Of a DNA stretch of 64,000 bases, positions 28,870 through 34,248 are shown piece after piece. The DNA comes from Bacteroides caecimuris (GTDB lineage: Bacteria > Bacteroidota > Bacteroidia > Bacteroidales > Bacteroidaceae), in assembly GCF_001688725.2 (NCBI RefSeq), contig NZ_CP015401.2:2418001-2482000 (forward strand). Direction: 5' to 3'. Position numbers and translations under genes: made by a program. Numbering within the stretch: position 1 is the stretch's first letter; every line of letters starts with the position of its first letter. The notes beneath the pieces were generated by a model. It searched no databases. It saw only the letters and a list, made by a program, of their open reading frames with translations, and was not told where the DNA came from.

Positions 28870-30468
28870 TTAATATACAGCCGAAGCTATTACTTGAATA
28901 AACAGAATCAAGAATACCATGGCAATCGGATAAACAGTTGCGTAAGCTACGCTCGGAATATTGCTATCCACCATAGAGTCGGCGGCAGCAAGTCCCGGAG
29001 TACTTGTCATACCTCCCGTAATAGTTCCCAGCAAATCGAGCAGACTGATTTTAAATACGAAATGTCCGACAATGGCTGCAACAAACATTGGCACCAATGT
29101 GATGGCGGCTCCTACTCCGAACATCAATAATCCGCTTTCCTGAAAAGTAGCTACCAGATTCTTACCGGCAGAAGTTCCCACTTCGGCAAGGAAAAGAAGC
29201 AGACCTAACTGACGCAACAACTGGTTGGCAGGTCCGGACATAGACCAGATAATGGGTCCTGTTTTACCTATCGCACTCAACACAAGAGCTACCATCAAAA
29301 CTCCCCCGGTCAGTCCCGGTGAGAATGACAGACTATCAGAGAAAGAGATATTTATTTTGCCGAACAACACGCCCAATACAATACCCATTGCAATGGGGAA
29401 AAAGTCCGTATCAGATAGTTTCTTCGCATTGTTTCCCAATAGGCGGGCTACTCCTTTAAGTCCCTCTTTCTCACCTACTACCATCAGTTTATCACCAAAC
29501 TTCAAGGCTAGATCAGGAGACGGAGATAGATCAATTCCGCTTCGACGAATACGAGTCACTGTACAACCAAAGTTTTTCTGTAAGTTCAAATCACCCAGTT
29601 GTTTGTTTATCATGTCTTTTTTGGTCAATAGCAAAGATTCTATTTCCTGCGTTTTATCCAAAGGCAGTTCTCCTTCTTCTCTCTCGCCTACCAACACAGC
29701 CAGTTGATCCAGTGATTCTTTGCTACCTACGGCTTGTATGTAGTCTCCTTCATGCAACACCGTATGGGCGGTAGGTATGGATATTTCATCATTGTGTTTC
29801 AGACGTGAAATGACAGCTCCTGTCATAGCGCGCGCATTAATTTGCACCAGGCTGCGATCGAATACATTCGCATTAGTGACGCGATAAATACAAGTGGTCA
29901 ATTCCGGGAATTGTCCGCGACGTTCTATCTCCAGGCGACGGGCTTCTTTATCTAAATCCACTCGCATGATTTTAGGCAACAGCTTGACAAACAGAATCAC
30001 ACCGATCACTCCAAACGGATATGCGATACCATAAGCAATAGAGGCCAAAGGAGAATGGGTACTGTCGATGGCAACAGCCAAACCCGGTGTACTGGTCAGC
30101 GCTCCGGCAATCAGACCGACAACACTTGGTGTATCGATATCAAATGCATATTTCAGCCCGACTGCGGTAAGACAAGCGGAACAAATAATAAGCATAGTGA
30201 TGAGGATAAGTGTCTTTCCTTTACTGCGGAAAGAGTCAAAGAAGCCGGGACCTGCCTGAATTCCGATGGTAAAAATGAAGAGCACCAAACCGAAGTTTCC
30301 TAATTCTTTAGGAATGACAACTCCAAAATGCCCGAAAAGAAGGGCAATGAAAATAACTGCCGACACATCGAGAGATAATCCTCTGATTTTTATTCTTCCC
30401 AGCATAAACCCTAATGCGACAATTAGGAAAAGGGAAAAATAAGAGGAATGCAATAAGTCAGTAAACAT
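28870..30468 (-). CDS. AspT/YidE/YbjL-family putative transporter
   Basis: An inner-membrane protein of 532 aa with two homologous halves of about five segments (N-terminal LFLIVALGFMLGRIKIRGLSLD; second half FFPIAMGIVLGVLFGKINISF). Between them are two TrkA_C-like cytoplasmic domains (about 185-270 and 270-355, e.g. VLHEGDYIQAVGSKESLDQL and LKFGDKLMVVGEKEGLKG). Duplicated GALTSTPGLA and GGMTSTPGLA motifs lie in the membrane halves, as in aspartate:alanine exchangers. The substrate is not predictable; an anion or amino-acid exchanger is the best guess. Confidence 0.88.
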   Translation of the reverse strand: MFTDLLHSSYFSLFLIVALGFMLGRIKIRGLSLDVSAVIFIALLFGHFGVVIPKELGNFGLVLFIFTIGIQAGPGFFDSFRSKGKTLILITMLIICSACLTAVGLKYAFDIDTPSVVGLIAGALTSTPGLAVAIDSTHSPLASIAYGIAYPFGVIGVILFVKLLPKIMRVDLDKEARRLEIERRGQFPELTTCIYRVTNANVFDRSLVQINARAMTGAVISRLKHNDEISIPTAHTVLHEGDYIQAVGSKESLDQLAVLVGEREEGELPLDKTQEIESLLLTKKDMINKQLGDLNLQKNFGCTVTRIRRSGIDLSPSPDLALKFGDKLMVVGEKEGLKGVARLLGNNAKKLSDTDFFPIAMGIVLGVLFGKINISFSDSLSFSPGLTGGVLMVALVLSAIGKTGPIIWSMSGPANQLLRQLGLLLFLAEVGTSAGKNLVATFQESGLLMFGVGAAITLVPMFVAAIVGHFVFKISLLDLLGTITGGMTSTPGLAAADSMVDSNIPSVAYATVYPIAMVFLILFIQVIASAVY

Positions 30469-30587
30469 AAAAATAAAGGTTAGTTAGTTTAAGGTCGCGA
30501 AGGTACGGATTTTATTTAATCCTCACAACATTCCTTGCGGCAAGTACTACTTTCAACCGTATTAATAACTCCCCTCTCCCCCAAAAA

Positions 30588-30730
30588 CAAGCCACCGAAA
30601 TGAGTCGCTCATTCCGATGGCTTATCCCCTTTAAACACCTTTAAACAAAATGAAAATATGCCTCATTTACTAACTAAACTAACTAACCCTTGAGGCATAT
30701 TTTAAAAGAGGCTGTCGCATCAACCTCTTT
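30588..30730. terminator. Cluster of three hairpins between the transporter and eda
   Basis: Three stems fill most of the 305-bp gap. AAGCCACCGAAATGAG pairs with CTCATTCCGATGGCTT at about 30588-30622 (14 of 16). AAAATATGCCTCA (about 30653-30665) pairs perfectly with TGAGGCATATTTT (30691-30703). AAAAGAGG pairs with CCTCTTTT at about 30704-30729. The last two probably terminate eda transcription on the minus strand. Confidence 0.55.
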
Positions 30731-30773
30731 TTATTATAGACAGCTTTCGCTCTCTAACCTTAATTTATGAGTC

Positions 30774-31442
30774 TTATTTACGAGCTTCGGCAATATAACC
30801 GAGAGCTTCTTCACATTTTGCAGTTACATAAGCCCAGTCTTCTGCTGCCACTTTATCTTTCGGGAACAATTTAGAACCCATACCTACGCAGAATACACCA
30901 GCTTTGATCCATCCAGTCAGGTTCTCTTTAGTAGGTTCCACCCCACCTGTTACCATCAACTTAGACCATGGCATCGGAGCCATTAAGCCTTTCACGAAGT
31001 TAGTTCCGTAAACATCACCCGGGAATACTTTGCAAAGATCGCAACCTACTTCCTGTGCAAAACCAACTTCTGATACAGAACCACATCCCGGAGTATAAGC
31101 TACCGAACGACGATTACATACCTTAGCAATTTCAGGATTAAACAACGGACCTACTACGAAGTTAGCACCCAGCTGCAAATACATAGCAGCAGTAGCCGGG
31201 TCAACGATAGAACCGATACCGATTGCCATTTCAGGACATTCTTTTGCTGCGAACTTAACGATTTCAGCAAATACTTCCTGTGCAAAGTCACCACGGTTGG
31301 TAAATTCGAAAGCACGAACACCACCGTCATAACATGCCTTTACTACTTTCTTTGCAACTTCTACATCTTTATGATAGAATACAGGAACCATTCCTGTAGA
31401 GCCGATCTTATTCAATACAGCTATTTTATCGAATTTTGCCAT
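30774..31442 (-). CDS. eda: KDPG/KHG aldolase
   Basis: Cleaves 2-keto-3-deoxy-6-phosphogluconate to pyruvate and glyceraldehyde-3-phosphate. The class I Schiff-base lysine fits the conserved block [15 protein letters not shown] and downstream [13 protein letters not shown] (about 135-150); the catalytic Glu is in [11 protein letters not shown] (about 45). The phosphate site [13 protein letters not shown] is at about 168. Length 222 aa is normal. With kdgK upstream and uxaA across the divergent promoter it completes hexuronate degradation. Its ATG begins 6 bp from the arm of the four-helix-bundle cassette that separates it from kdgK. Confidence 0.93.
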
Positions 31443-31447
31443 CTTAT

Positions 31448-31902
31448 TATTTACTATTTTATTATTTGCAATTTACTATTTAATACTTTTGCTATTTATT
31501 ATTCATCCGGCCTTTCATTGTGGCTATCGAGCTAACTATTATTTTTAAAAGTTCCTCATTTTCTTTGTATAAATCAACTAACAATTCTGATTTAACCAAT
31601 TGAACTTCCATTAATAATTCTAGCCAATATAAAGTCTCATCCAATTCTTCTTCCACCATCTTCAATTTATTAAGAAAATCTTTATCTGATTTTCCTAAAC
31701 ATGCAGCTCTATAATTGGCAGCAGGAGATGTACCCGAACGAATGATTTGATTACCGATAGCTCTACCAGCAGGAGTATTGGGCAACTTATCTACTAATCG
31801 AATAATACGTATTGCTAATTCCTTTAGTCTATTTTTAAGTTCAATAGTTGTCATTACGCAAAAGTATTAAATCGTAAATAGTAAATCGTCCAATCGTAAA
31901 TA
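31448..31902 (-). mobile_element. Intervening-sequence-like cassette: inverted repeat enclosing a four-helix-bundle gene
   Basis: The left arm 31448-31491 and right arm 31859-31902 are 44 bp each and complementary at 36 of 44 positions. The left arm ends at the base before the stop codon of the enclosed gene, and the right arm begins 5 bases from its ATG, so the gene is the whole loop. Outside the arms only 5 bp remain to the eda start codon and 3 bp to the kdgK stop codon. The arms are built of degenerate words of 7-8 bp (TAAATCG, TAAATAG). The organisation resembles the intervening sequences of bacterial 23S rRNA. Confidence 0.75.
31492..31854 (-). CDS. Four-helix-bundle protein, 23S rRNA intervening-sequence protein (S23/IVP) family
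   Basis: A 120-aa, all-helical protein. The family core is clear: RAIGNQIIRSGTSPAANYRA (about 31-50), then SDKDFLNKLKMVEEELDETL and YWLELLMEV (about 57-86), then a last amphipathic helix. Proteins of this family are encoded in 23S rRNA intervening sequences of Leptospira and Coxiella and are related to the Avd protein of diversity-generating retroelements; their biochemical role is poorly known. No 23S rRNA or reverse transcriptase is nearby. The gene splits the kdgK-eda operon and is enclosed by long inverted arms, so it is a transposed or RNA-processed insert, not part of sugar metabolism. Confidence 0.88.
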   Translation of the reverse strand: MTTIELKNRLKELAIRIIRLVDKLPNTPAGRAIGNQIIRSGTSPAANYRAACLGKSDKDFLNKLKMVEEELDETLYWLELLMEVQLVKSELLVDLYKENEELLKIIVSSIATMKGRMNNK

Positions 31903-31905
31903 AGC

Positions 31906-32931
31906 TTATCTCTGTACGCGACCGCTTGCGTCACCACCAGCCAAAGCTTCAACTTCTTCTACAGAAACAAGGTTGAAGTCACCATTAATAGTGTGTTTCA
32001 AAGCAGATGCAGCAACGGCAAATTCAAGAGCTTCGCCCTGGTTAGGTTTAGTCATCAAACCGTGGATGATACCACCGGAGAAAGAATCACCACCACCTAC
32101 GCGGTCGATAATCGGGTCGATATCGTAACGTTTTGAAGTATAGAATTCTTCACCGTTGTAAATCATAGCTTTCCAGCCGTTGTGAGTAGCAGAGAAAGAT
32201 TCGCGCAAAGTAGAAACTACATATTTGAATCCGAATTCTTTCATCATCTGTTGGAAAATGCCCTTGTAGCCTTCAGCGTCGGTGTGGCCAGCCTCAACGT
32301 CTGCGTCCGGTTTGAAGCCCAGGCAAAGTTCTGCATCTTCTTCATTGCCGATACATACGTCAACAAACTGCATCAACGGTTTCATGATAGACTGTGCTTT
32401 TTCTTTTGTCCACAGTTTCTTACGGAAGTTCAAGTCAACAGAAACAGTTACACCGTGACGTTTTGCTGCTTCACAAGCCAGACGAGTCAACTCGGCAGCC
32501 TTGTCAGAGATAGCCGGAGTGATACCAGACCAGTGGAACCAGTCAGCGCCTTCCATGATAGCGTCAAAGTCGAAGTCAGCAGCATCGGCTTCAGCAATAG
32601 CAGAGTGAGCGCGATCATAGATAACCTTGCTGGGACGCATAGAAGCGCCAGTTTCAAGATAGTAGATACCTACACGGTCGCCACCACGAGCAATAAAGTC
32701 TGTCTTTACACCATACTTACGCAATGCGTTAACTGCAGATTGTCCAATTTCGTGTTTCGGTAATTTAGTTACGAAATAGGCGTCATGTCCGTAGTTGGCA
32801 CAGCTCACTGCAACGTTAGCTTCTCCACCACCATATACTACATCAAAAGAGTCAGATTGAACAAAACGAGTATTACCCGGAGTTGATAATCTAAGCATGA
32901 TTTCGCCTAATGTAACGACTTTCTTTCCCAT
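31906..32931 (-). CDS. kdgK: 2-keto-3-deoxygluconate kinase (PfkB family)
   Basis: Phosphorylates KDG to KDPG with ATP. PfkB hallmarks are the N-terminal GEIMLRLSTPGNTRF, the sugar-binding GGGEANVAVSCANYG (about 32) and the C-terminal catalytic DRVGGGDSFSGGIIHGL (about 270, Asp base). Length 341 aa. KDG is formed from hexuronates after UxaA, and KDPG goes to Eda in the same operon. The gene is transcribed from the divergent promoter at 33074 under an operator that matches the LacI gene across it. Confidence 0.93.
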   Translation of the reverse strand: MGKKVVTLGEIMLRLSTPGNTRFVQSDSFDVVYGGGEANVAVSCANYGHDAYFVTKLPKHEIGQSAVNALRKYGVKTDFIARGGDRVGIYYLETGASMRPSKVIYDRAHSAIAEADAADFDFDAIMEGADWFHWSGITPAISDKAAELTRLACEAAKRHGVTVSVDLNFRKKLWTKEKAQSIMKPLMQFVDVCIGNEEDAELCLGFKPDADVEAGHTDAEGYKGIFQQMMKEFGFKYVVSTLRESFSATHNGWKAMIYNGEEFYTSKRYDIDPIIDRVGGGDSFSGGIIHGLMTKPNQGEALEFAVAASALKHTINGDFNLVSVEEVEALAGGDASGRVQR

Positions 32932-33063
32932 AATCTTATGTTTTAAATTCTAAGTTGTTAATATTATGAACTTTCAATTTATCATTTTACACCCATTTCC
33001 CAGGTTAACACACTGATAATACGTACATTAAACCATTAAAAGGCTAACATTACATACCTTTCG

Positions 33064-33075
33064 TGTGCGGGCACA
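33064..33075. promoter_or_regulatory. LacI-type operator O1
   Basis: TGTGCGGGCACA, an inverted repeat of TGTGC with a 2-bp spacer. It overlaps the end of the kdgK -7 element by two bases, so bound repressor would block kdgK transcription. Confidence 0.7.
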
Positions 33076-33081
33076 AAGATA
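33074..33081 (-). promoter_or_regulatory. -7 element of kdgK
   Basis: The minus strand reads TATCTTTG, matching TAnnTTTG, about 140 bp before the kdgK ATG. Confidence 0.65.
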
Positions 33082-33111
33082 CAACAATTTTCGTAATTAC
33101 AAAAATTGTTA

Positions 33112-33119
33112 TATATTTG
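33112..33119 (+). promoter_or_regulatory. -7 element of the LacI-type gene
   Basis: TATATTTG matches TAnnTTTG, 65 bp before the regulator ATG. Operator O2 lies just downstream in the transcribed leader. Confidence 0.6.
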
Positions 33120-33145
33120 TATCGAAAATATTAAGATTATTATTG

Positions 33146-33157
33146 TGTGCGAGCACA
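33146..33157. promoter_or_regulatory. LacI-type operator O2
   Basis: TGTGCGAGCACA repeats O1 with one change in the spacer. It lies about 27 bp after the -7 element of the regulator gene and 82 bp centre to centre from O1, so autorepression and DNA looping are possible. Confidence 0.7.
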
Positions 33158-33183
33158 TATACCTATATAAATAAGGTTATCGT

Positions 33184-34248
33184 ATGAATAAATTGCCCGA
33201 AAGGATTAGAATCAAAGACATCGCCCGCCTGGCGGATGTATCGGTGGGAACAGTAGACCGTGTCATTCACGGACGCAGCGGAGTATCGGAAGCAAGCAAA
33301 AAGCGCGTAGAAGAAATATTGAAGCAGCTTGACTACCAACCTAATATGTACGCCAGCGCCTTGGCATCCAACAAAAAATATACATTTATATGTCTTTTGC
33401 CGGAGCATTTGGAAGGTGAATACTGGACAGCCGTGGAACTGGGCATCCATGAAGCTATCGCTACCTATTCGGACTTCAACACTTCAGTGAAAATCAACTA
33501 TTACGACCCATACGATTATCATTCATTTGTTGACGCAAGCGAAGCGATTCTCACTCTTCAGCCGGACGGGGTGATGGTAGCTCCCACCGCCCCCCAATAT
33601 ACAAAGGGGTTCACAGATCGGCTGCAAGCATTGAATATACCTTATATATATATAGACTCAAATATCAAGGACGTTCCTCCCCTCGCCTTCTTCGGTCAGA
33701 ACTCACGTCAAAGCGGATACTTTGCCGCACGGATGATGATGCTACTGGCACGGGACGAGAAAGAAATCGTCATTTTCCGCAAAATCCATGAAGGAATTGT
33801 AGGTTCTAACCAGCAGGAGAACAGAGAAATCGGTTTCAGGCAGTACATGGAAGAGCATCATCCGTCTTGTAATATACTGGAGCTTGACTTGCATGCCGAA
33901 CGCAACGACGAAGACAACGAGATGCTGGATGAATTTTTCCGTGCCCACCCGACGGTGAAGAACGGAATCACATTTAACTCTAAAGCCTATATAGTTGGAG
34001 AATACCTGCAAAGTCGCGGAAAGAAAGATTTCAGTCTGATAGGCTATGACCTTCTGGAACGGAATGTCACCTGCCTGAAAGAAGGAAGTATCTCCTTCCT
34101 CATCGCCCAGCAACCGGAACTGCAAGGCGCCAACGGTATAAAAGCTCTTTGCGACCACCTCATCTTCAAAAAAGACGTGACCTGCATCAACTATATGCCT
34201 ATCGACTTGTTAACGGTAGAAACAATAGACTATTACCATAGCAAATAA
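33184..34248 (+). CDS. LacI-family transcriptional regulator of hexuronate genes
   Basis: A 354-aa repressor or activator. The N-terminal helix-turn-helix and hinge read IRIKDIARLADVSVGTVDRV, then IHGRSGVSEASKKRVEEI (residues 8-45). The periplasmic-binding-protein-like effector domain follows (YTFICLLPEHLEGEYWTAV, PDGVMVAPTA, FFGQNSRQSGYFAARM). It sits between kdgK-eda (divergent) and uxaA (31 bp downstream, same strand), so a hexuronate intermediate such as KDG or an aldonate is the probable effector. Two matching operators in the divergent region support local control. Confidence 0.92.
   Translation: MNKLPERIRIKDIARLADVSVGTVDRVIHGRSGVSEASKKRVEEILKQLDYQPNMYASALASNKKYTFICLLPEHLEGEYWTAVELGIHEAIATYSDFNTSVKINYYDPYDYHSFVDASEAILTLQPDGVMVAPTAPQYTKGFTDRLQALNIPYIYIDSNIKDVPPLAFFGQNSRQSGYFAARMMMLLARDEKEIVIFRKIHEGIVGSNQQENREIGFRQYMEEHHPSCNILELDLHAERNDEDNEMLDEFFRAHPTVKNGITFNSKAYIVGEYLQSRGKKDFSLIGYDLLERNVTCLKEGSISFLIAQQPELQGANGIKALCDHLIFKKDVTCINYMPIDLLTVETIDYYHSK

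Follow-up and report, generated by a model that had tools for sequence, protein, structure and literature searches.

Inverted arrays of a 7-nt word enclose an IVP/S23 gene at a kdgK-eda junction of Bacteroides caecimuris: a candidate member of a transferable gene-and-word class

The STRRs of cyanobacteria are heptanucleotide repeats known as fingerprinting repeats, RAYTs are tyrosine transposases, REPs are palindromes, and Avd, the accessory protein of diversity-generating retroelements, is S23-like. Among the described systems closest to the element reported here is the intervening sequence (IVS) of 23S rRNA which, according to the accessible part of PMC4990558, holds one S23/IVP open reading frame (ORF) between complementary ends in about 0.45 kb. 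The same text still finds neither function nor origin of rRNA intervening sequences clear after more than 25 years, and describes an S23p of Xanthomonas as a homopentameric toroid. A second point of reference are the TAACTGA heptamer direct repeats of Beggiatoaceae, Cyanobacteria and Bacteroidetes, for which no mechanism of spread was found and in which the mobile element, in a speculation of the authors, could be a repeat-binding protein (PMC4679880, accessible part). Here we describe a cassette in a 64,000-nt stretch of the Bacteroides caecimuris genome (contig NZ_CP015401.2, positions 2,418,001 to 2,482,000; hereafter the window), in which an IVP/S23 gene lies between inverted arrays of the word GTAAATN at the junction of kdgK and eda. 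We favour, with little more than even confidence, the reading that it is a member of a transferable class made of an IVP gene plus inverted word arrays, in which gene and word move together and the IVP most likely reads its word.

The initial annotation had noted a 44-bp inverted repeat around an IVP/S23 gene inside the kdgK-eda operon, with both arms close up against the genes, and these observations held. Of the 44 positions of the arms 36 can pair (38 of 46 with one base added per side), the stop codon of the IVP gene is abutted by one arm and 4 bp separate its start codon from the other, and the cassette is separated from kdgK by 3 bp and from eda by 5 bp (Table 1). A scan for ungapped 44-nt pairs with at least 34 complementary positions and an outer span of 300-700 nt returned a single site in the whole window, 31448-31902. 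The encoded protein scores 59.5 bits against PF05635 (cut-off 33.8) and 88.4 bits against TIGR02436 (cut-off 24), is the sole PF05635 match in its genome, which consists of one 4.84-Mb contig, and has as the only solved relative found by sequence 2rld_A, from an entry with five chains; relatives of the protein are recorded under Bacteroides. The IVP is the only gene between the arms, with no space for a second one, and its protein matched no nuclease or transposase family.

Compared with the 23S IVS, the cassette lies between two protein genes and not within a 23S rRNA gene, and its ends are arrays of a 7-nt word with many copies elsewhere. The TAACTGA repeats resemble these in being dispersed intergenic 7-nt arrays located mostly just before start codons (PMC4679880, accessible part), with GTAAATN as the word of the window instead. 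STRRs are likewise tandem 7-mers in Nostoc, where we found AATTCGC and AATTCGT arrays framing IVP genes. REPIN/RAYT systems share many inverted repeat pairs per genome, one encoded protein and a repeat fixed by clade (see PMC3116915 and PMC8266576); however, the IVP is a four-helix bundle, its word is a tandem 7-mer and no RAYT lies between the arms. Terminal inverted repeats are also a feature of insertion sequences and miniature inverted-repeat transposable elements, and no transposase of this kind lies between the arms, related elements elsewhere not having been scanned. As for diversity-generating retroelements, the immediate neighbours are kdgK and eda, and the look was limited to these two, a reverse transcriptase not being sought in the rest of the window. 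No known RNA family reached its gathering score within 30000-33200. A literature search, with most subscription journals and all preprints outside its range, returned no paper linking IVP genes to heptamer repeats, STRRs included; the main text of PMC4679880, as far as accessible, has no match for S23, 23S rRNA or four-helix and names no partner gene.

Both arms are tandem arrays of GTAAATN with spacings of 7, 7 and 8 nt. When up to three mismatches were allowed, the array pattern gave 56 matches in the genome versus 2 for a reversed control. In 43 of the 56, a frame of 60 codons or more has its ATG within 30 nt past the GTAAAT side, and 30 sit 6-7 nt before a start codon; the end of six matches lies exactly 4 nt from the stop codon of an opposite-strand frame. 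Outside the cassette the arrays are mostly solitary and adjoin start codons, and some are located at stop codons or mirrored. Neighbouring matches no more than 700 nt apart formed 12 pairs, 11 of which were convergent (ATTTAC then GTAAAT), one same-direction and none divergent. The cassette's own pair encloses 397 nt between its 28-nt matches, and the 10 other convergent pairs enclose 13-234 nt. The possibility that these gene-less inverted pairs are deletion copies of the cassette was rejected: the nine loops of at least 30 nt (the tenth, of 13 nt, was excluded) match neither each other nor the IVP DNA, and a tblastn search of the loops gave scraps of 10-16 aa, with the ten matches listed all in one loop and a smallest E value of 0.005.

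Most of the family carries such arms, in agreement with the expectation that other IVP genes would be abutted by inverted repeats. Our genus set comprised 119 genomes, 69 of them with IVP genes (112 matches); 91 loci were taken from these matches, mostly the stronger ones, and L029, L080, L082 and L096 were dropped for short flanks, leaving 87. With a threshold of at least 16 for the score of the best upstream-downstream inverted match, 62 of the 87 loci passed; among the other ORFs of these loci 10 of 271 did, and among mismatched flank pairs 3.8%. Since all 10 passing control ORFs lie within 120 nt of an IVP gene, they share the IVP arms. A second set, of named genomes, was made of the best 80 of at least 571 confirmed places, and this scope applies to all results from named genomes given below; L187 was dropped for a short flank. 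Here 47 of 79 loci passed (25 of 42 from Bacteroidota and 22 of 37 from other groups); the rate was 8 of 332 in control ORFs and 2.8% in mismatched pairs. The 37 loci outside Bacteroidota, with phylum labels set by hand, come from Nostoc, an Akkermansia, Chloroflexota, Firmicutes and more, one being unassigned. In six cyanobacterial genomes (five Nostoc and one Symploca, with 5-17 matches each including fragments), 23 of 30 loci passed versus 6.5% of mismatched pairs, several of these loci being also in the named set; across the sets, at least one locus (L203/L110) and several Nostoc loci occur twice.

Lags of 7, 14 and 21 nt stood out in the flanks of every group, together with a weaker 8-nt class in Bacteroidota, and measurable arrays held a median of 4.4 copies in the genus (116 arrays) and 4.7 in the named genomes (77 arrays). 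The 91 genus loci fall into 38 sites, and both neighbours are co-oriented with the IVP in 61 of the 91. In a search for IVP loci inside 23S rRNA, three 23S motifs were sought in 170 loci and gave one short match (L112).

The word follows the IVP clade. Among pairs of loci at different sites, alike arms were found in 4 of 4 with IVPs at least 70% identical, in 27% of 62 pairs at 60-70%, in 11% of 574 at 50-60% and in about 0.6% below 50%; in 41 different-site, low-identity pairs within one genome, none share arms. In the named genomes, at least three copies of TTTAC in arm orientation were present at 16 of the 22 loci whose IVP is at least 45% identical to that of the window, versus 0 of 57 below this value, and the TTTAC count correlated with identity to the window IVP (rho 0.68; 0.14 in the opposite orientation). 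The 22 loci represent 16 groups of neighbour genes, with kdgK-eda in two (L179 and L181), and include an Akkermansia and an Anaerolineales metagenome-assembled genome (MAG), although MAG contigs are possibly misbinned. The word of each IVP was assigned by hand. Nostoc G120 carries three IVP copies, one of them broken, which are 92-95% identical and have the AATTCGC word in common; since the similarity extends 58-482 nt beside the copies, they may be parts of longer repeats. At locus L255 of Nostoc G122, the IVP gene is framed by arrays of the TAACTGA type.

The history of the kdgK-eda site was followed in the same genus set, where eda was found in 103 of the 119 genomes and an IVP at the kdgK-eda junction in 9. 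When 30 eda loci were compared, kdgK was present in 29, and 26 of these 29 junctions had no IVP, including those of all 12 relatives with 97-100% identical eda. Junctions without the gene thus exist in close relatives, and the proposal of the initial annotation is not refuted by the two conditions named there, gene and arms kept at this locus in every relative or family members lacking complementarity. Eleven of the 12 closest junctions, read by eye, hold another word of the type GAGAGTTGA. In one of these relatives, G009, the final 360 nt of kdgK and the 660 nt of eda compared are identical to those of the window genome, but the junction measures 81 nt versus 466 nt; either a gain in the window genome or a replacement in G009 has therefore been recent. 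Since the remaining relatives resemble G009, we favour a gain. Several relatives retain the end of the second arm (AATAATAAG and the like), and the ancestral junction may therefore have held a GTAAATN word as well. Since the junction of G009, the nearest relative, holds a different word, the ends of the insertion (a target-site duplication or a clean empty site) are unreadable. Import of the cassette together with its flanks from a distant carrier was rejected, as the 60-nt flanks next to the junction are 77-87% identical to those of the window genome in the carriers G091, G098, G072, G078 and G042 and 100% identical in the IVP-less G009.

Purifying selection on the IVP is clear where measurable: dN/dS was 0-0.27 in 12 of 14 IVP pairs and 0.02-0.15 in the nine with dS above 0.2; one of the 14 lacked silent changes, and the pair that includes the IVP gene of the window was saturated. 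This differs from the S23p ORF of Coxiella, which is described as decaying (PMC4990558, accessible part). The two arms of a locus change jointly, with a complementarity of 21.4 within loci versus 14.7 when the arms are taken from different orthologues at one site (117 of 147 pairs; 10 of 13 sites); of 82 pairs in which both arms are good, 47 retain a good match when the arms are crossed. Arm mismatches of the G-U and A-C kind numbered 71 and 83 in 72 genus loci, and 55 and 75 in 56 named loci. As G-U is no commoner than A-C, a selected RNA helix does not account for the matching of the arms, and selection on an RNA hairpin was rejected.

The match between IVP clade and word, the arms in most of the family and the IVP-less junction in the closest relatives suggest that gene and arrays form one transferable unit. 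Such an element would consist of one IVP/S23 gene flanked by inverted arrays, each repeating a word of 7 nt (in some cases 8 nt) about 4-5 times; the gene would be inherited and transferred jointly with its word, settling between genes, mostly co-oriented ones. Because the word belongs to the IVP clade, the IVP protein, of which a relative forms a pentameric ring, most likely recognises its own word, either as DNA or as unpaired RNA. Extra copies of the word, either in solitary arrays or in inverted pairs that enclose no gene, are distributed over gene boundaries, and those located 6-7 nt before start codons probably act as harmless or useful translation leaders. On the simplest account, the word would be read by the IVP protein and arrays would be copied or retained accordingly, by which the IVP may have a part in their spreading or keeping. 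With five subunits per ring and 4-5 words per array, a pairing of one word with each protomer is suggested as a speculation.

Word copies away from the IVP loci were counted in the 119 genomes. Matches to GTAAATN had a median of 54 in the 10 genomes with an IVP of this type and 0 in the other 109 (p = 6e-7); G038 was counted among the carriers, its low arm score being due to a start set too far upstream. At this locus (L128), the open frame of the IVP extends upstream through its own word array; the chosen start is therefore probably wrong and the extra N-terminus a translated repeat. Genomes with the cognate IVP were also richer in AATTGAC (p = 4.5e-5, 6 genomes), AGCTACR (p = 1.2e-4, 5 genomes) and AAYGAAG (p = 5.3e-4, 7 genomes). 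Compared with genomes bearing only some other IVP, the p values were 2.6e-6 for GTAAATN, 2.8e-4 for AATTGAC, 1.8e-3 for AGCTACR and 5.4e-3 for AAYGAAG. For AATTGAC and AAYGAAG, the genomes named beforehand as richest are rich and not always the richest, most of them being exceeded by G046 and G038 for AATTGAC and by G038, G097, G115 and others for AAYGAAG. The summed load of the four words had a median of 79 in the 69 IVP-bearing genomes versus 5 in the 50 IVP-less ones (p = 4e-12), the list of genomes with at least 90% completeness having been set by hand for these counts.

Several points weigh against the IVP-and-word reading. Kinship is disregarded in the association tests, matches overlap inside an array, and the choice of the four words from IVP arms biases the comparison in favour of IVP-bearing genomes. 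AGCTACR has 322 matches in G072 and 290 in G043, where no IVP of this word was found, and G009, with 41 GTAAATN matches, and G046, with a summed load of 244, have no IVP at all; strict dependence of the words on their cognate IVP is not borne out by these four genomes. AATTCGT matches numbered 649 (overlapping) versus 10 in two Nostoc genomes which both have an AATTCGT-armed IVP. In addition, the arm threshold is not reached by 25 of the 87 loci in the genus set and 32 of the 79 in the named set, and the IVPs at one site are mostly old and inherited (58-86% identity among the 9 genomes at kdgK-eda). Finally, the unrelated loops of the gene-less inverted pairs indicate that the spreading unit is the array and not the cassette.

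A wider form of the IVP-and-word reading is put forward here only tentatively. IVP/S23 proteins would be sequence-specific readers of 7-nt arrays, with one word per protomer of a pentameric ring, and the missing partner of dispersed heptamer repeats (TAACTGA, STRRs and the start-codon arrays of Bacteroides); the 23S IVSs would be the rRNA-resident members, and words would spread in trans. A family-wide link between IVP and word would give rRNA intervening sequences and intergenic heptamer repeats a common and directly testable candidate, for which the ready-made pairs of protein clade and word suit binding assays, and it may tie together two puzzles, the spacer genes inside ribosomal RNA and the short repeats between bacterial genes.

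The position of the arrays could also be read as that of a regulon, with the IVP as a post-transcriptional regulator which binds arrays by the start codons of dozens of genes and is autoregulated through its own arms. This is possible, though doubtful. The 43 of 56 arrays with an ATG no more than 30 nt away, in 30 cases at 6-7 nt, are consistent with it, and so are the purifying selection on the IVP, the word following its clade, and the TAACTGA repeats, which are similarly positioned and for which a repeat-binding protein has been proposed (PMC4679880, accessible part). However, G009, G046, G072 and G043 are rich in arrays without the cognate IVP, arrays are found also at stop codons and mirrored, and IVPs occupy 38 different sites in the genus.

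The persistence of words in IVP-less genomes, the unrelated loops of the gene-less pairs and the excess of matches over IVP genes (322 in G072; 649, overlapping, in a Nostoc genome) would all be expected if word arrays spread on their own (through slippage, template switching or some unrelated factor) and offered places in which IVP genes merely settled or survived. We consider this unlikely, as the specificity of IVP clade for word extends across phyla and none of the 41 different-site, low-identity pairs from one genome share arms.

Very improbable is the model of the initial annotation, in which the cassette parallels the 23S IVS at the mRNA level and is either cut out by RNase III or stays as a hairpin: the protein family, the complementary ends and the co-orientation of both neighbours in 61 of 91 loci agree with it, and the predicted fold of the cassette RNA beats shuffles (z -2.66; 1 of 100 equally good), as is expected of any inverted repeat, but the arms have no G-U excess, and the solitary arrays by start codons, like the 7-nt word arrays without an enclosed gene, are not predicted by excision. 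What stands of that proposal is a small discrete element between the genes of an operon, which encodes a protein of the 23S IVS family; the finding is real and more general than first proposed, and the excision model should give way to that of an IVP-and-word cassette.

Table 1. Features of the window at and around the cassette (positions in the window; all on the minus strand).
Feature	Position	Strand	Basis
kdgK, PfkB-family sugar kinase, upstream of the cassette	31906..32931	-	PF00294 and ORF
First arm in the transcript, ATTTACN word array, 3 bp after kdgK	31859..31902	-	Inverted repeat and word pattern
IVP/S23 four-helix-bundle gene, 120 aa	31492..31854	-	Matches to PF05635 and TIGR02436, both exceeding the cut-off
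Second arm in the transcript, GTAAATN word array, ends 5 bp before the eda start codon	31448..31491	-	Inverted repeat and word pattern
eda, KDPG/KHG aldolase, downstream of the cassette	30774..31442	-	PF01081 and ORF
GTAAATN pattern match without enclosed gene or partner array, starts 4 nt after a stop codon	16887..16914	-	Word pattern scan

Three loci outside the genus set showed further arrangements. In Paludibacter (L168), two IVP genes of the window type (732-1088 and 2501-2857) occupy successive junctions, with a 429-aa ORF between them. A Bdellovibrio MAG contig (L186) carries two IVP-like genes no more than 2 kb apart (738-1058 and 2501-2845). In a Levybacteria MAG (L223), a 221-aa ORF, the start of which we take to resemble REP-associated tyrosine transposases, lies about 540 nt from the IVP gene.
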